Source of the DNA: Gonapodya prolifera JEL478
Taxonomy: Eukaryota; Monoblepharomycota; Monoblepharidomycetes; Monoblepharidales; Gonapodyaceae
NCBI GenBank assembly: GCA_001574975.1
Contig: KQ965864.1
Coordinates: 54,754 to 78,201, forward strand
Length of the DNA: 23,448 nucleotides
Reading direction: 5' to 3'
Shown here: in pieces, positions 1 through 22,071 of the stretch
Numbering within the stretch: the first letter of the stretch is position 1
Layout of the letters: every line of letters starts with the position of its first letter
Notes under the pieces: model-generated
Databases searched by the model: none
Told to the model about the DNA's origin: nothing
The model's input: only the letters and a program-made list of their open reading frames with translations
Translations under genes and position numbers: made by a program

Positions 1-578
1 GGCGAAGGATACCTGAACTTCATGGGCAACGAATTCGGCCACCCTGAATGGCTCGACTTCCCTCGTGCGGGCAACAACAACTCGTACTGGTACGCGCGGC
101 GACAGTACAACTTGCCAGACGACCCGCTTTTGCGCTACAAGTTCCTCAACGAGTTTGATCGAGCGATGCAGCATTTGGAGAAGAAGTATAATTGGCTCGA
201 TAGTCCCAACGTGAGTACTGGCGCGANGACGTCGTGTGTCAAGTGTGGTAGCCATCTCACACTTGTCACCATTCTTAGGGCTACGTCTCGTGGAAGCACA
301 ATGGGGACAAGATCGTTGCATTCGACCGCGGCGGTCTGGTGTTCGTGTTCAACTTCCACCCGACCAAATCCTTCACCGACTACCGCATCGGCACACCGTT
401 CAAGGGCGTCCACAGAGCCGTGCTCAGCTCGGACGACTCGAAGTTCGGCGGCCACAACAGGATCGATTATAGGGTCGAGCACAAGCCCATGAAAGAGAGC
501 TGGGGAGGTCGAGACTACTATGTTCAGCTTTACATTCCAAACAGGACCTGTACCGTGTACGCTCCAGACAGTTACTGA
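1..578 (+). CDS. 1,4-alpha-glucan (glycogen) branching enzyme, 3' end only
   Basis: This enzyme makes alpha-1,6 branch points in glycogen in the cytosol. The frame is open from base 1, so the gene starts outside the window. Exon 1-210 carries the conserved family block [15 protein letters not shown], followed by [20 protein letters not shown] phase-0 intron (211-278, GTGAGT...TTAG) contains the only undetermined base, n at 227. Exon 279-578 gives [19 protein letters not shown] and the FNFHP-x-KSFTDYR block, which are typical of the C-terminal all-beta domain of eukaryotic GH13 branching enzymes, and ends at TGA 576-578. The catalytic barrel lies upstream. The gene looks intact here. A separate N-terminal piece of the same family lies on the opposite strand at 8067-8321. 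Confidence 0.93.
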
Positions 579-6014: not shown

Positions 6015-6290
6015 GAAATGGTATTTTGAAGATACCGTCCTCAATGGCAGTGGTGGGCTTGTTGATGATACGGAAGACATCCATGCCAGTGAGGGTACCA
6101 GCGTCCTTTATTCTTTATTCGCCGCGAGTCGTTGAAGTAGGCTGGGGCGGTGATGACGGCATCCATGACTTTGTGGGCAATGTTGTCGTCCCGCAGTCTC
6201 CTTCATCTTAACAACAAGGGAAACAAGATTGCATTGAGGTGAAGGTCTTTTCCTCGCCCCTTCATTATTTCACGGGTGATGGACAGGACG
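6015..6290 (-). pseudogene. HSP70 fragment (decayed)
   Basis: Pieces of the HSP70 ATPase domain lie in family order on the minus strand but in different frames: GEEKTFT (about 6258), KMKETAG (about 6206-6187), DAVITAPAYFNDSRR (about 6165-6118), then KDAGTLTGMDVFRIINKPTTA and IEDGIFKI (about 6110-6027). They match the consensus blocks KMKE-A, HAVxTVPAYFND, KDAGxxxGLxVxRIINEPTAA and IEDGIFEV. The link between the -PTTA and IEDGIF blocks lacks the roughly 35 residues with the phosphate-2 loop. Single-base shifts occur around 6110 and 6185. It cannot make a working chaperone; it is a relic or a captured fragment. Confidence 0.75.
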
Positions 6291-6677
6291 CGAGCTGGTT
6301 GAGAAAAACAGCGAGTCGTGGATTTACTGCATTCGTCAACTTGGAAGAGAGTGACCCAGACGAATCCATTCCTCTCGCGAGAGCATGTGTCCGTTGCAAC
6401 AACATATAATTTTGTGTTGCCTTATGAATCGACTTGGTGCAGGTAGAGTTGTCACCTGATAGTTAGAATTTATATTTATATATATCCATTTCACATCTGG
6501 TAGTGGAAATCTCACTGAGTTCGCTAAGGAAAAGCGAGCGTACACTAATGAAGGGTAAAGGGAGAAGATTTGTTGAAGTGATGAGTTATAAAATTGACAG
6601 TGTTACAGTTTTTTTTTCTGTTGTTGTGGAAAGCCCTCGCACCATCCTTCTACGCATAAAACATCGATTTTGCGAAC
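6291..6677. other. intergenic, no gene seen
   Basis: A stretch downstream of the PIWI gene with AT-rich runs (around 6465-6485) and a T tract near 6609-6618. No ORF with recognisable motifs on either strand. It presumably includes the 3' untranslated region of the PIWI chimera. Confidence 0.45.
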
Positions 6678-7999
6678 TCAGCCGCCGTCACTTTCCCACC
6701 CATCGCCGGCACGAGATTCTTGTGCACCGCGATCTTTGAGCAACACACGCAGACGTGCGCGATCTAATGGAACAAACAATAGTGTAATTCTCGTCGCGAT
6801 GATCAAGACTTGAGCTACTTACAGATGAGAAGATGAGCGTAGTACGTCGGAGGAACAAGTGACACCGAGCGCGCGGCACGAGTGTATACGTAGCAGGGCC
6901 GGTAGGTGAACTGAGGCGGTGAATATAAAAGTAAATATGGTTAATCTGATGTCGGAATTAGAAGCGTCCCGCAGTGTGGTTTACAAACTTGATGCATCAC
7001 GTCTCCCGAGAGCCCATTCTCATCAAGAAGGACGTAGTAGTGAGCCGGGCTTCACATGTTCCATTTAGTTCACCATCAGCCCAACGGGAACCAGTTAAAC
7101 CTCACCAACTCGTTCCCAGGATGCCAGCGTGACTCATGAGGAAGTCTAAGTCGGACTCAAACGGGTGAGTAATCGTCGTGTCCACCACGGTTCCTGGCAT
7201 GGCGTTTCCAGACTTGTCCGCGTTGTTGGTGCCGGGCTTGTCCACGAAGATCTTGGTCTTGTGGCGTTTCGTCATCACCGTCTATCATGGGGGAAACGAA
7301 GAACGTCAATACAGGTCAATCGCATCACATCTCGAACATACAATGGTGATCTTGGGGTTGTATTTTTGCTCCAAGCTTTGACACACTCTCTTGACGGCCT
7401 TGATCTCTGAGGCGAAGACCCTTTGGAAATGGTCCTAGAAGGCGTGACAACAATCATGACTTGATTCGTGAGCGATCAATCGAGAGAACGTGGAGTGCGC
7501 ACCTTGGATACTTCATCGCGGTAGAACAGAATCCACTGAGGCTTTCGTGATTGGTTGGCGCGGTAATAAGCGATAAAGGTATCTTTCATCTGTGGGTGAG
7601 TGGCGGAGAGGTTTCGTTACTTCTTTCTGAAGACTGAGGAAAGAATCACAAACTCACAATGCCTTGCATGTCTTCGATTACTTCGGTTTTGTTGGACTGT
7701 GTTGGTTTAAAAGCGACCGTTAAAGTTTTATCCTCAAATGAAGGAATTAGGCGCCGTATCAACAAACCTGACGTTGGACGGTGGGGAAGTACTTGGTGGG
7801 TGGAGGGTCAATCGTTGATACATGGACAGAGATATCAATGAGTACTGGATTGCTTCACAACTATCAACAAAGCGAGGGGGCCCAAACAAGGTACTCACCG
7901 CGGCCGCAATACTTGGCATACCGTGAGACCTTGTGAAATGAGGGACGTCTGCCACACCAACGATAGTGTCAAGGCCCTTTACAAACTCAGCAGGTTGTT
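6678..7999 (-). other. PIWI (RNase H-fold) module of the chimera
   Basis: In Argonautes this domain cleaves or clamps the target RNA paired to a guide. Nine exons, all in frame, cover it from the first strand with the first catalytic Asp to the C-terminal YYAHL block and a 25-residue tail. Against the family consensus, GADVTH is replaced by GVADVPH (one extra residue, Thr to Pro), while the other conserved blocks are close to consensus. The short tenth to twelfth introns use GTGAGG, GTTTGT and GTAAGT donors. Confidence 0.88.
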
Positions 8000-10324
8000 C
8001 TAATGAAACAGAAACATAGTATTCGTGAAAGTGAAAGCACATTTAATAGACACTCCGCGAACTCACCGAGAAGCCTCTGGTTGGCCTTCTTGAACTTCTC
8101 CATCCCTCCCTCCTCGGAGTCAAAGTTGAGCTTCCATTGGTTATAAATCCAGAATCGGTGCTCCAGGGGGCCCTTGTGGGACTCCAGGTAGGGGTCGAGG
8201 TCGAGGAGGGGCTTCACGGGAGACGTGTTTGGTGGGAAGGTCGATGGAGGGGCGGGAGTGAGGTTCTCGCGGATGGGGACGGATTTGGAAGAAGGCGTGT
8301 CAATGTCGGAGCGTGAAGATACTGAGAAGATGGGTGGTAGACGGTGGTTTAGACAACGTGTCACGATTCAACTCGCGGCGAGGCTTACCTGCTTCTGGTC
8401 GGTGGCAGACATTCCCAGCGTCCTCTTTCGCTTCAACGCTTTCCATTTGTACTCGAAATAGAGCTTCTTCCAGCGCAACTACCTCTGCTTTGAAATCCGC
8501 GAGAGCATTTGAAAACCCGTCACCGGCAGTGAGGGTGTTCGAGTGGAGCTCTGTCAACGTACTGAGCTTCTTCGAGACGCCGTCTTTCGAGGCAGACACC
8601 GGCACGCTTGCCAGGACGCCTTCGAGGTCACCAGTGATGTCCGAGAGAGGATTGCCACGGAACGATTCAATTGCCTCGTCGGCAGAGGCCTCGGGCCCGT
8701 CCCCAGTAGTGCGGCAAAAACCAGCGAGCCGTGCGGCAATGGCTGCTATCGGACATCCGTCCTGCTGCTGTCCGGCCCTGAGCGCCGATGACGGGTGCGA
8801 GGTACATTCGACGAGTTTGTGGGCAGCGACGAGGGAGCGATCGACGAGAAGCTCGGATGGGCGCTTAGTGTGAGAGTAGGGGGATTGATTGCCAGTCGTG
8901 TCCCCGCGGTCCGGTATAATGGTGTCGTAACCATCCTCGTCATCCAAATCCGTCTCGTCGCCGCCCTCCCCGCCGTCCTCCCCGCCGTCTTCATTCTCCT
9001 CCTCCTCGCCGTTCTCCCCCTCACCACCGTCACTCCCCTCTCCGCCGTTCTCCCCACCTGCGCCGTCCTCACCCCCATCCTCATCCTCTTGCCCATCTTG
9101 CTCCTCATCCTCATCCCCGTCTTCCTCCTCCACCACCTCCTCTGCTCCCTCCTTTTTACCTGCTTCTTCCTCGTCTTCGCTGTTTTCGTCTAGCTGCGGC
9201 TCACGGAAAAATATGTCGATGTCCCCGTCCTCGCCTATGTAGAAATCAGTGGACCACCACATGGTGAGAAAAGATATCGGTGTTCTAATACCAGCAAATC
9301 ATCTCACCGGGATAATCCTCGGGAGGACATTCGACCTGAGCTTTCAGACTCACCCCATCCGGAACTGTTCTAAACAGGCCAGTTCCCACGCCAAGCATTG
9401 GGCCGCCGAAATCGGAGAAGTCGTGCGGTTGGGGGACAGTTACGGTCTGATCCGGTATGAACCCTGGAACAGCCACGCTAACGCGATGCGCCTTGGTTTC
9501 CGGAGGGGGCAACATAAAGTCAAAAATTCCGGCATGAGCTTGCTGCTTCAACACGTCTGGATACGAGTCCACGAGGTCTGTCAGACTCCGATTCTCATAC
9601 GGTGGTCGTCCGATTTCCTCAGACTGGGCGAATGTCTCTCGCAAGCTCGAGTCCATGGTCGGCGAGCCTTGTCGAGACCCAGGCAGTGTCAACCTGTAAT
9701 CCGTCTCATCCACATCGAACGGCAACATTTGAGACTCGTCTTGGACTCTGTTTGCCTCTTGAGACAGTATGGCAGGCTCTGCCTCCATCAGAGATACCGC
9801 TGGGTCAGCAACGAGCTGCGACGTGAAATCAAGCTCCGCGGCGACATCTGCTTCCTCCACCGCATACAACGCAGGCACCGCATCCATGGTGATGCCGGGC
9901 CGGTGCTCCGTAGACTCAGCAGACTCGATGGGCTCAACGGCCTCGGCGGAATACGCGGCATCAGCCGACTGCGTAGCCTCGGCAAACTCTGGAAGGTGGT
10001 CTGGTATGTAAGCGCTCGGCGTTGTGGGGGATGGGAGTGGGGATGGCAGCGGAGAGGACTAGTTGACGTCGATGAGTCACCCGTTAGCATCCAAGCGGGG
10101 AAGCGACGAGACTGGGAACCACGCCAGCTGAAGCTCACAGATCGACGGGTTGTGGGGTCCGTGTCGCCCATGCGGGCCCGCTTCCAGTTCTGTCGTGATT
10201 TGCATGACCTGTGAGCGTTCGATTCCGCAAAATCCACGGCGAGAAGACGCACGAAAGAGTCGCCAGTGTGCCGATCGCCATCGTCGTCCGCCACAGGGGC
10301 CCTTCTTTTCACGGGGGCTGGCAT
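6678..10324 (-). CDS. chimeric protein: acidic/helical region + branching-enzyme N-terminus + PIWI domain (949 aa, 13 exons)
   Basis: Exons, high to low: 10324-10139, 10058-9308, 9234-8389, 8321-8067, 7999-7895, 7844-7768, 7696-7658, 7589-7503, 7434-7342, 7281-7106, 7049-6989, 6910-6823, 6763-6678 (TGA); total 2850 nt, frame preserved at every junction. Residues 1-594 are not recognised: Pro/Ser-rich, then Glu/Ser-rich with [11 protein letters not shown], then a long Asp/Glu/Gly run (about 325-420) and a helical stretch. Residues 595-679 include [19 protein letters not shown] and EEGGMEKF, the N-terminus of glycogen branching enzymes. Residues 680-949 are an Argonaute PIWI domain: [104 protein letters not shown]. 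The DEDH set appears present (D697, E745, D778, H875). N, PAZ and MID are absent. The first ATG and the exon 3/4 join are uncertain: it may be two genes, the second starting at 8412. Confidence 0.7.
8067..8321 (-). other. glycogen branching enzyme N-terminal segment within the chimera
   Basis: One exon encodes a Pro/Ser/Thr linker and then the N-terminal helical segment typical of eukaryotic branching enzymes (LDPYLE, HKG, LEHRF, EGG-EKF). After EKF the family normally has a Gly-Tyr-Phe-Gly stretch and the CBM48 domain. Here the sequence instead runs KANQRLL to a GTGAGT donor at 8066 and splices into PIWI coding sequence. Confidence 0.8.
8389..8412 (-). other. alternative start (MSATDQKQ) in a second frame
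   Basis: An ATG at 8412 in context GGGAATGTCTGCC opens an eight-codon exon ending at the same GTAAGC donor (8388) as exon 3 of the long model, but in a different frame. Spliced to an alternative acceptor (CGCGAG at about 8270-8266) it reads in frame into the branching-enzyme segment at 8265. This would be an independent start for a shorter branching-enzyme-N/PIWI protein. Confidence 0.35.
8930..9200 (-). repeat. Asp/Glu/Gly low-complexity coding stretch
   Basis: On the minus strand this is an irregular purine-rich GAG/GAC/GGC tract coding for an acidic run inside exon 3 of the chimera. On the plus strand the same bases read as Leu/Val-rich nonsense. Such tracts slip easily, so its length may vary. 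Confidence 0.7.
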
Positions 10325-10629: not shown

Positions 10630-11060
10630 TTAGGCTGGAGAGACCAGCCGGTAGGTAGAATGGGGATGCAAACGTCTGAGAACGTGTGGAACCATTCGAA
10701 ATTCAGGTTGGATCCCCCCCCCTCTAGGCAGCACCGGTGCTGCTGTATCCACGGTGAAGGGTGCATCGAAAAACGCAGATCTGCAGGAGGGAGTGGCTTT
10801 GGGGGCAAAGTGCTTTCTCAGGTTGATTGCAATTCCTGTGGTCACTAGTGCTGGGGGAGGGGGCTTACCAATAAGGTTTGCGACATCAAAGAGCACCAAT
10901 GAATTGTAGAGGGCGTTGGAGCGCGTGCAAATTAACAGGGGCTCGGAAGATGTTCGAGTTGTATCGAAGGTGGAGCCAGGGTGGAAAAGAGGTACACGGG
11001 TACGCAGATACCGGCGCGCCGCCTCCAAAAGACCACCGGGAGCGCTGCTTTAGTGGCGGC
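10630..11060 (-). other. unassigned minus-strand open frame, possible gene fragment
   Basis: A frame with protein-like composition (RYLRTRVPLFHPGSTF; YNSLVLFDVANLIG), followed at 10867 by a GTAAGC-type donor, then an open stretch with GIAINLRKHFAPKA. I do not recognise the family. It lies downstream of the decayed paralogue, in the place where the intact gene has its acidic and branching-enzyme parts, but shows no similarity to them that I can see. Confidence 0.3.
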
Positions 11061-11714
11061 AAACGGAACTCGATGGAAGGCGTGTGAGGCGCGCACATGA
11101 GGCAGCAGCCATCATCCTCTTTTTCCTTCACCTCACCGAAATATGTTCTTGTCGTCCACGTAGAAATCAGTTGCAATACCACCACGCAATGAGGAAAATT
11201 GTTCTCACCGGAATCGTTCTCGTGAGGACGGCATTCGGCCTGTCCCAGCCTCACTTCGCTAAAGTGCGCCCCTCACACACAGCATTTCTCCACCGACGAA
11301 GAAGTCGCCACTTGTGGAAGAGCGCACGTCTTGCCTGGAAGAATCCCAAGGACGCCCATGCTCACTCGGTGGGCATTGGTTTCCGGAGGGGGCAAGTGCT
11401 CGGTGCTTCGAAACGTCCAGGAGAAGTTTGCCAGTTTCCGGTCGTCGTACTCTAATGTTTTGCGGTCGTTGCACTCTAATGTTTCGCGGTCGACACCGTG
11501 GTAGAGCGCGGATGACTTCAGCATGTCAGGGTCGACTGGCGTCGGTGAGCCCTCACGAGACCCAGGGCGCAGCATCATAACGTAATCTCCCCCCGGGGTC
11601 ATTGAGCTGCGAAAGTGGGATCCAGCTATTCGCCCTCGGCATCATTTCTTTCGTCCAACGCATGCACTGCGGATACCGCATCCAGATTCCATTGTGATAT
11701 TGGGCTGGGCCTCT

Positions 11715-11970
11715 GCCGAATCACCAGACTCGACGGACTCGTCGGACTCGATGGACTCGATGGACTTGATGGACTCGATGGACTCGATGGACTCGATGGA
11801 CTCGATGGACTCGATGGCCTCGACGGCCTCGACGGCCTCGAGGGACTCGGTGGACTTGGCGAACTCGACGGATTCAGTGGACTCGGCGAACTTGACGGAT
11901 TCGACGGCCTCGACGGACTCGGTGGACTCCGCGGACTCGACGAATTCGACGGACTCGACGGCATCTGCAA
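11715..11970 (-). repeat. 9-bp minisatellite (GACTCGATG family) coding Glu-Ser-x
   Basis: About 28 head-to-tail copies of a nine-base unit, read on the plus strand as GACTCGATG, GACTCGGTG, GCCTCGACG and variants. The most homogeneous part is around 11750-11820. On the minus strand in the paralogue's frame it codes ESIESIESI, then VES/AES variants, matching the shorter Glu/Ser-rich region of the intact gene. Confidence 0.9.
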
Positions 11971-11983
11971 ACTGGATGACCTC

Positions 11984-12131
11984 CGCAGAGGATTGACTTG
12001 TGAGCTTCACTTGGCGTGGTTCCCAATCTCGTTGCTTCGGTGTTTGGATTATAACGACTGGTACACCACACCAATCACATCCCCAACACCAAGCACACTC
12101 GTGCCTGACCATCTTTCTGAGTCGCAGAGGA
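11984..12131. other. inverted ~130-bp segment flanked by 9-bp direct repeats
   Basis: The plus strand here (GTGAGCTTCACTTGGCGTGG, then TGGTTCCCAATCTCGTTGC, later CCTGACCATCTTTCTGAG) matches the minus strand of the intact gene at about 10138-9990, namely its first intron and the start of exon 2 ([15 protein letters not shown]). Everything downstream in this paralogue is on the minus strand, so this piece is reversed. The nine bases CGCAGAGGA occur at both edges, at 11984-11992 and 12123-12131, in direct orientation. Confidence 0.75.
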
Positions 12132-14753: not shown

Positions 14754-15404
14754 ATTATTCGTAAAGTGCGGTAAGCAATAATCTCAAACAAAGTCCGCTC
14801 CCCCCGCCCATGTCGCAGCGCATCAGCGTTCCCCGATTATCCGTCGCATCACTTTGTCAGCAGCCCACTTCTCTGTCTCTGTGCCATCGCGGATCTGGGC
14901 GATAATTGGGTAATATCATTTTCCTGGGTTGGATTTTCAGTCCATGTATGTGCCGGAGGCAACTTGGAAATGTCACAGCTCGGAGAAGATAGGACGCAGA
15001 GCAGTGCTCTGCGAGACTGAAGCCCAGGTGAATTGCTGCCTTACTGCTTTGTACGTTGAAGAGCTCCTGATCGAGTTGGGCGCGCGCCCTTCGGTTGGTG
15101 GATTTTGTTCCTGGAAGCAGGGTCCAAGTGATGGATATTTGTGGCATATATTCTACGCTTTGTTATCAACCTTCGTTCGAGTTGACTTAATTCACAAGCA
15201 ATCGACCAGGCTGGGCTGCGAGTGAGGTCACAATTACGTGAAGGTGTGGCGTAGATAAAAGGATTTCACCCGGCCAAGCAGGTGACTTTCAAAGCAAACC
15301 CAAATGGCAGGGTAAGTTCGATTCCATCGCGATGAGATGCCCGTAGCTCCGCAAACATGCTAGCAACATCATTCCACACCTCGATGCTTTCGATTCGGCC
15401 GTCG
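14754..15404. promoter_or_regulatory. divergent intergenic region
   Basis: This lies between two genes transcribed away from each other (ATG at 14753 leftward, ATG at 15405 rightward), so it should carry both promoters. A TAGATAAAAGG stretch at 15252-15262 is TATA-like for the rightward gene. The longest ORF inside shows no motif. An ATG-GCAGG-GTAAGT at about 15304 could be a small upstream exon, but its frame does not reach the downstream protein. Confidence 0.35.
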
Positions 15405-15934
15405 ATGGCCATTCGTCGGTTGTGTTCGATCGACACACCCTGCCCTTCTATTCGCCGAATCCGCCATCAATCGGACTCATTCCAGCAACAACCGCTTCCT
15501 TCTCTTGCTTCTTCTTCTCGGAGCCTTTGCTTCGAACCCCGGTGAGTTCTTCAGGGCGAAAAGGGTGGAAGGAAGCTGGAGCTCACATCTGCCTCCTTCA
15601 TATTTCATGACTGGCCATTCTCGCGACCTCAGACGAGGATAGCTTCCGCCGATACGCCGAGAAGGTCATTCAGAAGAAGGGAGGAACGTGGTTAGAGGCC
15701 AAACTCTTGACGGCCAGCACTTTGGTGTTCAAACGATTGGTACGTGATCGATTCAGTCGGATTACACTCGTTGAGCCTTGACGTAGCTGCTTGTCCCCCT
15801 CTGTTCAGAATCTCTGGTTCCTTTCGATTGTGACGATCGAGAACAACGACAGCGTTTGGGTTGGAGTGTTCTCCCAGTGGATCCCACTGCCCTCCACGAA
15901 ACGTTTGGTCGACATTGCGGGAGGGAAGAGCTGA
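15405..15934 (+). CDS. small secreted protein (~99 aa, 4 exons)
   Basis: Exons 15405-15418, 15486-15541, 15633-15739 and 15809-15934. The start is fixed by joining MAIR to R-NNRFLLLLLLLGAFAS, which makes a clear signal peptide (basic n-region, seven leucines, likely cleavage after AFA). The mature part NPDEDSFRRYAEKVIQKKGG ... WLEAKLLTASTLVFKRL ... DSVWVGVFSQWIPL ends at TGA. Without the first intron (donor GTTGTG, weak) there is no ATG in the leucine-rich frame, which supports the model. The charged helix followed by an aromatic GVFSQW segment reminds me of short secreted or organelle proteins with an NP-x-E/D-x-x-F/Y start, but I cannot name a family. Confidence 0.6.
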
Positions 15935-16834
15935 TAGGCGCCGCGCTAGGCGCCCCTGCTGTTTTGGTGTTGTGACGGGATTCATGTGTACTTTGGGCAG
16001 AATGGTATGAATATCAAATTATCTCACTTTAGTCAAGTCGAAAGGACACATGTTGTCGCAGGTAATTGCGACCTGCTTGGGTTTGACTGCACGACCAGCG
16101 GCCCAAATGGAATGCGGTACGGACCATGTATATTATTGGACCGGGAGCGGTACGGATTAAATGGTTTTTTGTGTCTGAGTTTATTTGTGCGTGATTCTGT
16201 GTGGACTTTGGGTTGGATCTTCAAGTGATGAGTAGCTTTATTTGGCTTAGCAAGACGCATATTTTAGCTGTGTGCCGGGAGACAGAAGAAAGGGAATACA
16301 CCGATTTTTGTGGACGGAGGCGAAACCCGACCACCGAAGCCACGCGGGCCGAGGACCGGTTTGGGGGACGAATTGGGGGACTGCTGGTTTCTGCTGGATT
16401 GATTGTGTCTTGCGTGCTGAGTTTACATTCGACTGCGTACTCTCTATCGGCGGGCTTGATCATCATATCACCCGCCGAGGCCCACCTGCGACATCCTCCT
16501 GATCATTGAGTTGTCTGTGAGTCAATTGGACTTGCGACAATGTCCAGTTCGATGCATCACCATAATCGGGCCAAGCACGACCTGGTTCGCCGACACCCTT
16601 TCGAAGTCGTCCCTGAACGTCGCCGAAGTATTTGAGGATAACGTAACCTAATTAAGCAATTTGCTTTTGTTACCAGTCGCTGGCTCGGTCGGAGCCTTTT
16701 ACCTGTCGGGGAATGGCGGCCAACAGTTCCACCCACGTTCACCGCACGTTCGTCTGGGAACCTCATCCTCAAAATGCAAAAGCCCTGTAATTTTAATTTT
16801 CACGATCAGTCCTTTCGTTTTCCTACCAGCCACG
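15935..16834. other. 900-base intergenic region, no gene seen
   Basis: Both strands have ORFs up to about 100 codons, but none has a motif, signal peptide or splice-consistent partner. The right end should be the promoter of the GDPD-like gene; no clear TATA box is visible within the last 100 bases. Confidence 0.4.
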
Positions 16835-19697
16835 ATGAAGGGATCGGCGCTGAGCGTTGTGGCATTGGGCATTGCATTGACTTCCGTTGCCGAAGCGTGG
16901 ATTCTGGTGCCATCGACCCCTCTGAACCAGGTCGGAGGCATCAACACGAACAGAACAGTGTGGCCTTTCGCTTCAAAGTGCTGTTAGTGGACGCAAGATA
17001 GTGTGTTCGCTGAATGATCGCCAAGACCAGGATTTATATGGGATTCATTTGACAGGGAAAACTCTGAACGGACTCCCAACCGAGTTTTCGGCGCACAGAG
17101 GATCGCGATGGCACCTGCCTGAACACTCAAAGGTGTGGCCTTGCGTTCGAATCCAATGACGACTGCAGAAATGTGATATTGGGATGTTGCGCCTTTGCAT
17201 CTTCTCATTGAAGGGAGCCTACTGGGAGGCAGTTTTAAACCACGTTGACTACGTCGAACCGGATCTTGTCTTCACCAAGGACAAGATTGTGATGGTCAAC
17301 CACGACTCTTACTTGGACTCGACCGTCGATGTTGCGACGAGGTCGGAGGTAAGCGTTCCATTCAGGTTTTGCGTTGGTCGCAAGTGAGTAGGATTGACGG
17401 GTGCTTTTCCGCTCAGTTCGCCAGCAGGAAAACAGGAAAGGACATGTAGGCACAGAATCCGTGGTTTCTCTTTGGTGTTCGAAATCACTTACGTCAAACG
17501 CCGAATGAAATCTGCTGATGAATCGATTTACAGCTGGGCCGAAGATGTGTTCTACCCTAACCGCTCTTCGTGGTGGTGAGTGGTCGAATATCAATCCGGC
17601 TCTTCGTCAAATTGTCCAGGATTCACTCACGGCTCAACCTCCAGGATTGGCGACTTCACGTCCGATGAAATCGCCACAATGTACCTTCAGCAGTCCTATC
17701 CTTCTTAAAAGCAACTGCGACATGCCTTCAGTACATTGACCAAAACAAAAACCTGACAACCATCTTGAACACCAGCGTCGGTTTCATTCCCGAGATTAAG
17801 CAGCCTTTCTACCAGGTCAGTCGATATGGTTTAGTTTTGTATTTGTAATGCTCAAACAGTCCTCTGCCGTAGAACACTGTTGTTCTCAACCCCTCGCTGG
17901 AAAGTTCCCTTACCCTAAGCTCGGTATGTATCTCTCATCGCTCATACCGCCAGCTCCGTTTCTCTAAGCAGTGATGTGCGATTTCTCCAACCCTAGGTGG
18001 TAACGCCTCTGTCTACCCCCACACCGCCGAGGACCTTGTCATCGAGATGCTCCAGAACAACAGCCTGCCATCAGCCAAGCACCCTGTTCTCATCCAGAGC
18101 TTTGAGTACGAGACCGTTGAGTATCTCGGTACGTTCTCTGCTGGCCAGATGTCATGTCGTTGAGAAGCTGTGGAACTAAGTTCACGTTCTCCACGGTTCT
18201 AATATCCCATGGGGCATTTTGCAGCCACGAAGTATCCCAACGGAAAAGCTTTCAACGGCTTGCTTATGCTCATCGGATCCGCAAACTGGTGGATTCTCAC
18301 GTACAAGGGTCTCGACAAGCTTGCTGCCCTTTCGCGAGCCACGAACAACACCATCTACATTGCGCCGTGGAAAGAGTACGTCGAGCCACTTTTCGAATCC
18401 AACTCCAAGTCACTTAACCCTGACTGTTCGAATCACCACAGTGTGCTCACTGACGGAATGCCGCTTTACGTGCTGCAGAGCTTGAACATTGACATTTACG
18501 CTTGCAACAACACCCTGACGTTCGATGGCTTTAGCGCAAACGACACCGTGCCTCCCTCGGATCTTGTCGCTGAGCTCCACTCTCGTGGCCTTAAATACTC
18601 GTGAGCTCCTGTAGTAGTATTGGAGCAACATATCGCTGAACACGTTTCTTTTAGCGGATACACCTCATACGCCTCTCCTCAGTCTCTGAGCTTCAACTGC
18701 CAGTCTAAGGTGCCTTCATCGTACAACCTGTCGAGCTTGAGCTACAAGCCGGTGCCTTGTCCGAAGGTGAGACAAGTGTTTCTTCGCTCCCACAACACGA
18801 CGGGAGAGCTTAACGTGATGCCTTGACTGTGACAGACGAAAAGGGCGGAGTACTTCATGTACTTTTCTCAGGGTCTGGTGAGTCCATTTGCTTTTACTTT
18901 ACTCAGAGTTTTGTTCGCTAAATAATCATTGTCGTGGATCATCACTTCAGGACAACTTCTTCGTGGAGAACATCCAAGAAGGTGAGTACATAGCTCCATG
19001 TGAAAACTCAGAGTCTCCGCGCTGGACTCATACGTAACGCGATCAGCTCAACAACTTCGTGAGGAGTTCAACTTCTGGCTCATTTCGCAGTGCGCAAAGG
19101 ATGCTCCAGAGTCGCTTTGGAAGAGCATGCGCGAAGCCATGAAAAAGGAAAACGTTCCAGGATTGAATTTTTTTGATATCTAGATTATGAGTAGTGAGGA
19201 AGCCGGCAGAATGGGTAGTCCGGCAGAATAGATATTTTGTTTCCCACCTCATTTCAGTTGGCCATCCAGCGCGACCGGAACCGCAGCGACATCCGCTACC
19301 GATACGCTGGTAAGTTGACTCCCTTCATTTGAGTCTCACCGACATCTGCGCCACCCATCCCGCGTGATGCTTTCCACAACACAAAACTGATTTAATGAAT
19401 CTGAGTCAAGGGGAGGCCACAAGCCAAACCTGCCTGTCGACAAATTTCGGAACTGATGGACGTGATGGGGGCCTGATGTCGCGAGGACGTTTCCGAAATG
19501 GACTTTTACCTTTGGACAACAACTGACCTGACAATCTCATTTCAGGTTACAAGCTCCTGTCTCCCTACGAGAGCAGCACCCCACTGTGTACCAGGACTCA
19601 AGCAAAGGAAGTGAAAACTATTGTTCATCTGCTTGGTTCGAACTGCGTTCCGTCACCTCTGGAACCGTTCTGCTTCGATCCAACAGATGAGCCATAG
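16835..19697 (+). CDS. secreted glycerophosphodiester phosphodiesterase-like protein (~556 aa, 15 exons, one frameshift)
   Basis: Exons: 16835-16982, 17056-17132, 17214-17348, 17417-17445, 17534-17575, 17645-17815, 17860-17923, 17997-18128, 18225-18600, 18655-18766, 18836-18877, 18951-18981, 19047-19153, 19258-19309, 19546-19697. A signal peptide (MKGSALSVVALGIALTSVAE) precedes GDPD-family blocks: FSAHRGSRWHLPEHS (catalytic HR), YVEPDLVFTKDKIVMVNHD (metal-binding E-x-D and second His), IGDFTSDEI, VGFIPEIKQPFY, HPVLIQSFEYETV. GDPDs split glycerophosphodiesters into sn-glycerol 3-phosphate and an alcohol; secretion would suit phosphate or choline scavenging (inference). All junctions keep frame except inside exon 6 near 17700, where one base is missing between QQSYP and FLKATATCLQYI. 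If intron 19154-19257 is not spliced, the protein stops at 19183 (NFFDI). Broken as read. Confidence 0.75.
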
Positions 19698-19915
19698 ACT
19701 CCACTTCTATTTTTGTCGGCAGCTCTCTCGAGATAGCCATGCTGATGAAATCTGCTTGAACACGACACTCGGACTGTGCTTACATTTCATTCGTCTTCCA
19801 GTTGGATCACAGTAGAGGTTTCGATGACCTTGTCCTCCCACTCTTGGAATCGCTGTGACTCTGAATCGAACGTTTCAGAGTGACATAAGTTCTTTTAGTC
19901 GAAGGAATTCTTCAG

Positions 19916-20260
19916 AACGATGTTGGTTACTTGACTAATGAACTCGGGGATGTTAAAGCACCATTTCAGATACCCTTTTGCATCGCAGACTTGGCAATCT
20001 CATTCGTTGGATTTCGGAGATGATCTTCTTGATGTTTTGTTCACCTGTAGATCTCATTTCAAACGCTGCACTTGGAACTTACTCTCTGGTACATATCGGG
20101 CAATACAGTGCACCCACTCTTTGTACCGGCCAACGAACCTTTCACCCTCAAAGTGGCAACTTCTCCGCCCGTAAATTTCACTCGCAGTTTGGTCAAGTTG
20201 TCGTGGAAACAGAATGTGCTTCTTGTCTTTCCACCACTCGATCGAGTGCAACGCATTTGA
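19916..20260 (+). pseudogene. fragment of a possible secreted or membrane protein (DUF3712-like pattern)
   Basis: Two segments join in frame across a 45-base intron (20006-20050): NDVGYLTNELGDVKAPFQIP ... CIADLAISF, then LTLWYISGNTVHPLFVPANE and PPVNFTRSLVKL, ending at TGA 20258. The pattern of a Gly-Asp-Val, Pro-Phe-x-Ile-Pro-Phe segment and a short beta-rich tail resembles fungal DUF3712-type proteins, but the match is weak. No start codon or upstream exons were found, so it is at best a remnant. Confidence 0.25.
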
Positions 20261-20699
20261 ACGCGGCATTCATGGTCAGCGCACCAGGTGAATAGTTCGG
20301 GAACGTCGTGAAGCAACGAGTTGGAAAGCAGGCGGCGATGGGTGCTTTTTTTGGTTGCATTTGAAAAAAAGCTTTGGAGACAATTGCATTACTATTGGAG
20401 CAGTGTGTTGAGATAAATTTTCAGTAATACCTGATTGGACTAAAGTAAATAATTGACTAGAAACCAAATTTTGATTGATTCTATTCAGTATTGTAACTAG
20501 AAATTCGAGAAAGTCCACGCCAATGTTGACAAACACGACGAAGAATCCGCTTTCGAGGCGTGCGCTTTGCCAGCTTTCTACGATGCAGCAACTACCGTGC
20601 CAGTAGTCAATCGGGATCCCCTTCTGGTTGAGGCTATGAACATTGGTGGTTGAGAACAAGGCAGCCTTTGGAAATCTTCTCAATGCAATGCTGAATCTT
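20261..20699. other. no gene seen
   Basis: A stretch without recognisable coding sequence on either strand. Minus-strand ORFs of up to about 135 codons lack motifs and splice partners. Confidence 0.4.
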
Positions 20700-21272
20700 C
20701 AACTCATTACCGTCCCGGAGCTATGTGTTGTAGGTCCAAATCGGTCCCCGACTTCAGCTTTGCTTGGGAGATCAAACAACTTCTTCAGCGACTGCAGCAG
20801 AATACGCCGAGAAAGGTATCAATGTGTATCACGAATCTGGGCACAGAAGATGGACATACGCTGAGTGACCTGAGTGCTCTGGAGGACCTGCAGTTCAAGC
20901 AAACTATTCTGGGACTCAACTCCCCTAGTCGCTGCGTCGAGATATGTCACTACCCTCAGCATTTCTTGACATGCTACCAGCATTTTGGCAACTCAAATCA
21001 CAGACGCAACATTAGAGGGTTTGGTGAACTGTGCCCCCGTGCTGGAGGTTATTGACGTGCACAGCCAGTATACAGGAATAAGCAAAGCCTCTACAATCAA
21101 CTGTATTTTCAAAAATTGTCTCGCTCTGAAAGTCTTCAGGGTTGATAGCCTCGAATCAATGAGAAAACCTGATGATATCGACTGGTCGCTTGCGCTGAAC
21201 CACCCAAGTCTTCGTGAACTCATGTACAATGAGAAATTGATCGCAAAAGGGGCCCATTTGCAGGAGATCTGA
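20700..21272 (+). pseudogene. LRR (F-box/LRR-type) gene fragment with in-frame stop
   Basis: In one frame ASRYVTTLSIS is followed by TGA (about 20969), then ILATQITDATLEGLVNCAP, LEVIDVHSQYT, FKNCLALKVFRVDSLES and SLALNHPSLRELM to TGA 21270-21272. The repeated -L-x-x-L-x-x-C-x-x-L-x-x-L/I- spacing and the start TDATLEGLV are typical of Cys-containing LRRs found with F-boxes. Upstream sequence in a neighbouring frame (EIKQLLQRLQQNT) may be the linker. No F-box lies before it, so the fragment is 5'-truncated. Confidence 0.5.
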
Positions 21273-21653
21273 TGAGAAAAGTTTGGAACCCATTCACTAT
21301 TGCGTCGCGTCAAATTTGTCGGACGAATTTCAATTCAAAGGGAAGAAGGTGGACAAGTGCTTGACGGTGGCGACTCGGAGCTGGAAAGTGAAGGATGTGA
21401 TGGATGGGAAACTGAAAGCGCTGATGAACAAGGAAACCATCCTGGCGATGAGAGCATGGAAGGGTGAGGGAATATGATCACTTTCAACCAATCCTTGTTT
21501 ACTCTTGTTAACGTAACAATAACGTGAAATGCATTCTAAATATTCATATCTGTGGAAGTGAGTGCCGACGTGTCTCCACCGAAAAAGTCTGCAACCACTT
21601 CTCTCACAATCATCAACGTCTGCTCCGTTTCGTTGCGAAGTTGCTGTTTCGCC

Positions 21654-21669
21654 AAAAAAAAAAAAAAAA
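21654..21669 (+). repeat. A16 homopolymer
   Basis: Sixteen consecutive A residues end ten bases before the ATG of the F-box gene. It may be a chance promoter or 5'UTR tract, or the remains of a poly(A) tail. Its length may be misread. Confidence 0.8.
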
Positions 21670-21678
21670 TCCTGCACC

Positions 21679-22071
21679 ATGTCATTGGCGTCGCTGCTGC
21701 AGGAAGCAACCCAGCATTACAAAACGGCGTGCAATCGATACCGGAAAGCATCTCACTGCCAGCGCAGCTTCTCGCTTGACACTCTTCCGGCCGAATTATG
21801 GCACCGCATATGCCGCTTTTCGACCCCAAGAACCTACTACAACGTTCTCCCTCCGCTCTCCCGCACCATCCGACCTCATATCCGGGGTGCGTTTCTGTGG
21901 GACACCGAGAAAATAATCGGCGTCCATTGCACAATTGTTGCGAGACCACATAATGTGCATTGGAAGGCGAACTTCGATCCGGTACGGAGCAAGGAGAACG
22001 CTGATGGATTCGGACGTTTCTTGTCCCACTTTCACCCTCCCACGCATTCAGCCTCATATCTTACGAGGTGA
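21679..22071 (+). CDS. F-box protein, short or truncated (130 aa)
   Basis: F-box proteins bring substrates to SCF ubiquitin ligases through SKP1. The ATG at 21679 (CACCATG context) opens MSLASLLQEATQHYKTACN, then the F-box LDTLPAELWHRICRFSTPRT ... VLPPLSRTIRPHI at residues about 35-70, followed by AFLWDTEKIIG. The frame ends at TGA 22069-22071 with no LRR or other substrate-binding domain, although fungal relatives are usually several hundred residues long. After about 22015 another frame carries protein-like sequence (YEVTVTLVDPFCAPAEV), so a frameshift near 22010 may have cut the protein. A 3' AATAAA lies at 22319-22324. Confidence 0.6.
   Translation: MSLASLLQEATQHYKTACNRYRKASHCQRSFSLDTLPAELWHRICRFSTPRTYYNVLPPLSRTIRPHIRGAFLWDTEKIIGVHCTIVARPHNVHWKANFDPVRSKENADGFGRFLSHFHPPTHSASYLTR

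Follow-up and report, generated by a model that had tools for sequence, protein, structure and literature searches.

Does the fungus Gonapodya prolifera JEL478 encode a natural fusion of a glycogen branching enzyme (GBE) with an Argonaute PIWI domain? The question is raised by a 23,448-nt stretch of contig KQ965864.1 (here C134), positions 54754-78201, which is referred to in full as the window. Within it, thirteen exons on the minus strand, from 10324 to 6678, share a single open frame of 949 or 930 codons that takes in, in this order, an acidic stretch, a GBE N-terminus and a PIWI fragment. Searches were run against the 47.6 Mb assembly of 207 contigs. The original prediction took this frame for a gene fusion encoding a PIWI-only protein with a foreign N-terminus that perhaps tethered it to glycogen or to new partners. 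At the DNA level, the 5′ part of a GBE gene is indeed joined in frame to the 3′ part of an Argonaute gene, but the working protein is not supported, as the PIWI part is decayed and carries lesions. The locus is probably a chimeric pseudogene, or a gene for an N-terminally extended GBE fragment with an unselected Argonaute tail, born of rearrangement. It looks like rearrangement debris rather than a new working protein because the joined piece mutates like a dead gene. The parts of the locus, in window coordinates, are:

8083..10324, minus strand: 5′ donor part (N-terminal extension plus GBE N-terminus), an open frame with a counterpart in a GBE paralog at C134:100.7-103.3 kb
10324-10139, 10058-9308 and 9234-8389, minus strand: N-terminal extension exons, an open frame; that paralog, which is decayed, likewise has an N-extension ahead of its GBE N-terminus
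8852..9234, minus strand: acidic low-complexity start of exon 3 (E 33, G 27 and D 23 of 128 residues counted)
8321-8067, minus strand: exon 4, GBE N-terminus from 8321 to 8083, then Argonaute codons
8082..8083, minus strand: junction, GBE ...EKFKKA / NQRLL... Argonaute, in frame, placed where the blastn match with the Argonaute gene on contig C58 begins
6290..8082, minus strand: Argonaute 3′ fragment that shares 75% identity with C58:222189-224009; it holds the RNase H-like portion of PIWI with its introns, followed by some 390 bp of 3′ flank
8000..8066, minus strand: intron 4, intact and inherited from Argonaute, with position and phase as in the C58 gene
7792..7898, minus strand: intron 5, damaged; the C58 acceptor CCAG/GTATCAACG reads CCATG/TATCAACG in the window
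6678..6763, minus strand: last exon, carrying an 8-nt deletion seen as a blastn gap and in the frames

The thirteen-exon, 949-codon frame is present as first described, and depends on the choice of intron 5. Among 16 in-frame, stop-free choices enumerated for this intron, 7894-7845 (donor GTACCT, 50 nt) alone yields 949 codons, and it also agrees with coordinate 7895 of the original prediction. The inherited, stronger donor at 7898 (GTGAGT), paired with an AAG acceptor ending at 7792, yields 930 codons. Residues 1-679 are identical in the two versions.

The identity of the 3′ half as PIWI is confirmed by matches to the Pfam Piwi profile (E = 2.6e-51) and to human AGO2 (E = 1.1e-51), although only profile positions 110-298 of 302 are covered, a partial domain. 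PIWI matches occur on eight contigs, C134 among them, and the gene on C58 is the nearest. Homology to it begins abruptly at window position 8082 and continues at the DNA level (75%) through exons, introns and 3′ flank to 6290. The C58 gene itself contains matches to ArgoN, L1, PAZ, L2 and PIWI (ArgoN and L2 below the Pfam cut-off). Pfam does not list MID even in this gene, so its silence on MID is uninformative alone. The Argonaute homology in the window starts past the PAZ and MID region of the C58 gene and past the first part of PIWI, and a PAZ search of the genome gave no match at the fusion locus. The five PAZ matches found lie in five loci, each of which also has PIWI; an orphan 5′ Argonaute half was thus not seen elsewhere in the assembly. 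Like eukaryotic Argonautes such as the C58 gene and human AGO2, the fusion has the RNase H-like PIWI part with residues D, E, D and H and inherited introns; unlike them, it lacks the N, PAZ and MID domains and the PIWI part before NQRLL, and it has a damaged acceptor, a shifted C-terminus and no detected constraint.

The join had been placed at the intron 8066-8000. This position is ruled out, since homology to the C58 Argonaute already begins at 8082, and the intron is an ordinary one inherited from Argonaute. Parentage instead changes at 8083/8082, 16 nt ahead of that splice and inside exon 4: the NQRLL codons, preceded by KVNTKLGGI in the C58 Argonaute, directly follow the GBE residues EKFKKA in the window. 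The join falls between two codons and keeps the frame, which has a 1 in 3 chance, and no Ns are present at the junction.

Two lesions mark the Argonaute fragment, the loss of the intron 5 acceptor AG and the 8-nt deletion, both of them in the window copy and neither in C58. The deletion leaves the Argonaute C-terminal tail (VHKN...FYA) in a different frame, and the window copy does not end in the hydrophobic residues of such a tail. In addition, the second D lies in a motif that reads YRDGVSEGQF in C58 but YRDEVSKDHF in the window.

The direction of change was determined by comparing the window and C58 Argonautes with the C5 Argonaute as outgroup, retaining 234 of 236 codons; a codon-wise count retained 233 of 236. 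Columns gapped in any of the three genes were dropped from both. Around intron 5, codons were set by hand from the window letters (10 for the codon-wise and substitution-rate counts, 23 for the polarisation). For the 35 amino-acid differences between window and C58, C5 shares the C58 residue at 27 sites, the window residue at one and neither at seven, which places 27 of the 28 polarisable amino-acid changes since the C58 split on the window branch. At codon positions 1 and 2, 26 changes fall in the window and 2 in C58, versus 14 and 10 at third positions, and the window ratio of 26:14, taken for the PIWI part alone, is near the unconstrained 2:1. Codon-wise, nonsynonymous to synonymous changes number 23:13 in the window vs. 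0:11 in C58 (Fisher p = 2e-4), with a synonymous split that is rough: the synonymous distance (dS) to C5 is about 3, and polarisation at these sites is weak because C5 is saturated there. Positions invariant in the Argonautes of C5, C151 and C92 are changed at 16/112 in the window and 4/112 in C58, counts that predate the last 13 hand-set codons; in a listing of 15/115 changed residues, the last three coincide with or lie beyond the point where the reliable alignment ends, and are not to be counted. The C5-polarised comparison with C58 detected no purifying selection on the PIWI part. This half evolves as though unconstrained, with two disabling lesions.

Several observations weigh against a dead locus. 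The nonsynonymous share on the window branch (23/36) is not significantly lower than neutral expectation but comes close (p = 0.07), and a weak constraint on the PIWI part would still be compatible with the data. The pairwise ratio of nonsynonymous to synonymous rates (dN/dS) between window and C58 is 0.27, a figure that includes constrained history. When each of the more distant Argonautes is left out in turn, invariant positions are changed at 5/113 in C5, 19/127 in C92 and 21/129 in C151; 16/112 alone is therefore no proof of decay, because distant Argonautes change invariant positions too, and the relevant contrast is with C58. Outside the two lesions, the PIWI exons contain no premature stop. 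The residues D, E, D and H, which we take to be the Argonaute catalytic tetrad, are still encoded (E, the second D and H as aligned with human AGO2, the first D as aligned with C58). Finally, exon 3 is open beyond chance, its length being reached in 0/1000 order-1 Markov resamplings.

Other Argonaute loci of the genome provide separate observations. At C118:83500-88500, the sequences that flank the C58 Argonaute on either side are present (86.6% and 93.6% identity) with 78 bp between them, where C58 has about 4.1 kb including the Argonaute, a presence/absence of the whole gene. The Argonaute at C35:132500-138500 is possibly a pseudogene: its spliced alignment contains two frameshifts, and the YRDG motif is interrupted by a stop.

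The GBE N-terminus is weak by itself (best solved GBE, E = 0.03), and a Pfam scan of the fusion protein returned no GBE match. Its assignment is upheld by the single other match in the genome, C134:101538-101705, with 59% identity over 56 residues, at a locus that also ends in a GBE C-terminal domain. A search with the N-extension gave a weak match immediately ahead of the GBE N-terminus of this paralog (E = 0.0015). The paralog (C134:100.7-103.3 kb) is a decayed GBE with a stop at codon 12 and an N-extension matching that of the window. Since both loci have the N-extension ahead of the GBE N-terminus, this arrangement is older than the join. An uncharacterised acidic protein had been proposed as a further source of the frame; as a third unrelated partner it is ruled out, because the paralog has the N-extension and then the GBE N-terminus, while the strongly acidic part of exon 3 has no visible counterpart there. 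The fusion and the paralog thus share the order start, N-extension, GBE N-terminal region, and differ in that the fusion lacks CBM48, GH13 and the C-terminal domain and has the extra acidic exon part.

As a match to the N-extension, C56:282955-283188 (E = 5.5e-4) scores better than the paralog, but this match covers an acidic stretch (query residues 267-345, 38% identity) and may reflect low complexity only; C2 and C5 were also matched (E = 0.03 and 0.2), and the N-extension has no significant Pfam domain. Exon 2 was equalled in openness by 2/1000 order-1 Markov resamplings, and the opposite strand of its region is open longer (299 vs. 257 codons), so that exon 2 alone is not proof of coding. 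On that plus strand, 9243-10214 forms a stop-to-stop open frame of 323 codons.

The GBE part stops after about 45-55 residues, ahead of the CBM48, GH13 and C-terminal domains. A genome search with the GBE C-terminal domain matched only C134:55035 and C134:102972, with none in the fusion gene; searches with CBM48 and GH13 gave zero matches anywhere, a result that is not credible as absence and is uninformative. Both GBE halves lie at a similar synonymous distance from the decayed paralog (0.78 for 53 codons, 0.62 for 139 codons).

These features are best accounted for by a sequence of events in which a C58-type Argonaute gene would first have been duplicated, and a chromosomal break in the copy would have removed its 5′ half. 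The broken copy may then have been end-joined to a break in an N-extended GBE paralog, in a rearranged and duplicated region, with the frame retained by chance, as would happen in one of three such joins. The PIWI tail would drift without selection. With a dS of 0.25 to C58, the Argonaute copy is of more recent origin than the GBE duplication, whose copies are separated by dS values of 0.62 and 0.78. MID and PAZ serve in guide binding, and CBM48 in glycogen binding. The predicted product would not be expected to bind guides because MID and PAZ are absent, nor to act as a glycogen tether because CBM48 is absent, and judged from its sequence a function for it is unlikely.

The locus resembles chimeric pseudogenes and other rearrangement-born fusions in its unrelated fragments joined within an exon, its lesions and its neutral-like change, but differs in a frame that stays open for 930-949 codons. 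Helitron-type gene capture is similar in leaving several gene scraps adjacent on one strand; here, however, a genome DNA search found no second copy of the mosaic, and no helicase domain occurs in the stretches and strands scanned. Argonaute duplication and loss are known from basidiomycetes, according to two papers (PMC7522536, PMC4290597), and a literature search on GBE-Argonaute or other Argonaute fusions turned up no GBE-Argonaute case among the papers listed. The locus illustrates cleanly how unrelated genes joined inside an exon can keep a long frame and good splice signals and so mimic a new protein family. Compared with the nearest paralog and an outgroup, the joined domain shows no constraint. 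Gene-prediction software might well call the locus a GBE-Argonaute fusion.

An accidental join is plausible because the neighbourhood is rich in broken, duplicated gene pieces:

1..578, plus strand: conserved GBE C-terminal part (E = 3.5e-67 to a solved GBE)
6035..6259, minus strand: degenerate HSP70-like fragment of 225 bp with a broken frame, 30 bp past the Argonaute flank
11306..12121, minus strand: degenerate second copy of N-extension parts that contains an inverted piece as well as a 9-nt tandem array

The plus-strand GBE has its 5′ part in a 5.1-kb run of Ns (C134:49646-54753) beside the window, and its C-terminus lies about 7.5 kb from the minus-strand chimera. Broken GBE pieces also occur at C134:100.7-103.3 kb and at C36:3728-3850; the latter was ruled out as a source for the missing 5′ part of GBE, as it holds only the last 41 codons of GBE.

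Four other explanations were weighed against rearrangement debris. The N-extension could be a gene of its own, with its end ahead of the Argonaute part or inside it; one way would be read-through into intron 4, whose unspliced translation hits a stop within about 30 codons. PIWI would then be dead downstream DNA. The unusual openness of exon 3 fits this, but the remaining N-extension copies are decayed as well, the N-extension lacks a significant Pfam domain and exon 2 is open on the other strand too, and we regard it as unlikely. A reciprocal inversion, by which tail-to-tail GBE and Argonaute genes on C134 swapped 3′ halves, would make the gene whose GBE C-terminus opens the window the partner (Argonaute 5′ plus GBE 3′), with the N run covering its 5′ part. 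It is favoured by the opposite strands of the two pieces and their 7.5-kb spacing, the equal numbers of visible GBE N-termini and C-terminal domains (two each), the similar synonymous distances of both halves to the decayed paralog, and the location of all five PAZ matches in PIWI loci, with no orphan 5′ half visible outside the N run. The good conservation of the GBE C-terminus, however, is easier to reconcile with an intact GBE that extends into the N run than with a hybrid, and the tail on C36 means that GBE copies exceed two; the inversion is an unlikely but live rival. If the N run did hold the reciprocal product, the two hybrids of a single inversion would be found together, a rare occurrence.

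An expressed, selected fusion gene, namely an RNase H-like PIWI without MID on a GBE N-extension, would be favoured by the long open frame in either version, the retained catalytic residues and the intact intron 8066-8000. It would have to accommodate neutral-like change with two lesions, the altered YRDG motif, an Argonaute homology from which the MID region and the beginning of PIWI are missing, and a C-terminal tail out of frame, which renders it highly improbable. Scarcely different is the combined proposal of either one translated fusion protein whose relaxed PIWI marks a guide-free role, or two expressed reciprocal inversion hybrids with the partner in the N run, which we hold to be very unlikely. 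An assembly error joining two loci, suggested by the N run right beside the window, is extremely improbable: the junction has no N, the Argonaute part differs from its nearest relative by about 25% and has its own lesions, which indicates a separate locus, and the PAZ search showed no orphan 5′ Argonaute half elsewhere. Rearrangement debris with a drifting Argonaute tail thus remains the reading we consider probable.

Minor features of the window complete the description. The HSP70-like fragment has two Pfam HSP70 matches in two frames, below the cut-off (E = 0.001 and 0.0083), and its DNA is about 79% identical to places on C107 and C55. The 9-nt tandem array in the degenerate N-extension copy, of GACTCGATG type, spans 11727-11960. 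The segment 5643-5917 is 65% identical to C8:173327-173630, with no Pfam domain in the three plus-strand frames scanned, and about 90 bp at 10631-10719 are common to C36, C75 and C122 at 78-84%. To the right, 15107-22047 is colinear with C149:43693-52781 at about 79-86% identity outside a dispersed repeat, which suggests that the assembly contains either diverged haplotypes or a segmental duplication. C149 was ruled out as the unfused state of the locus, as colinearity ends left of 15107 (20 kb examined). The dispersed repeat, about 490 bp at 16049-16542, accounts for 30 of 45 rows of DNA matches, and on C149 the matches to its two flanks lie 5 bp apart, an empty site.

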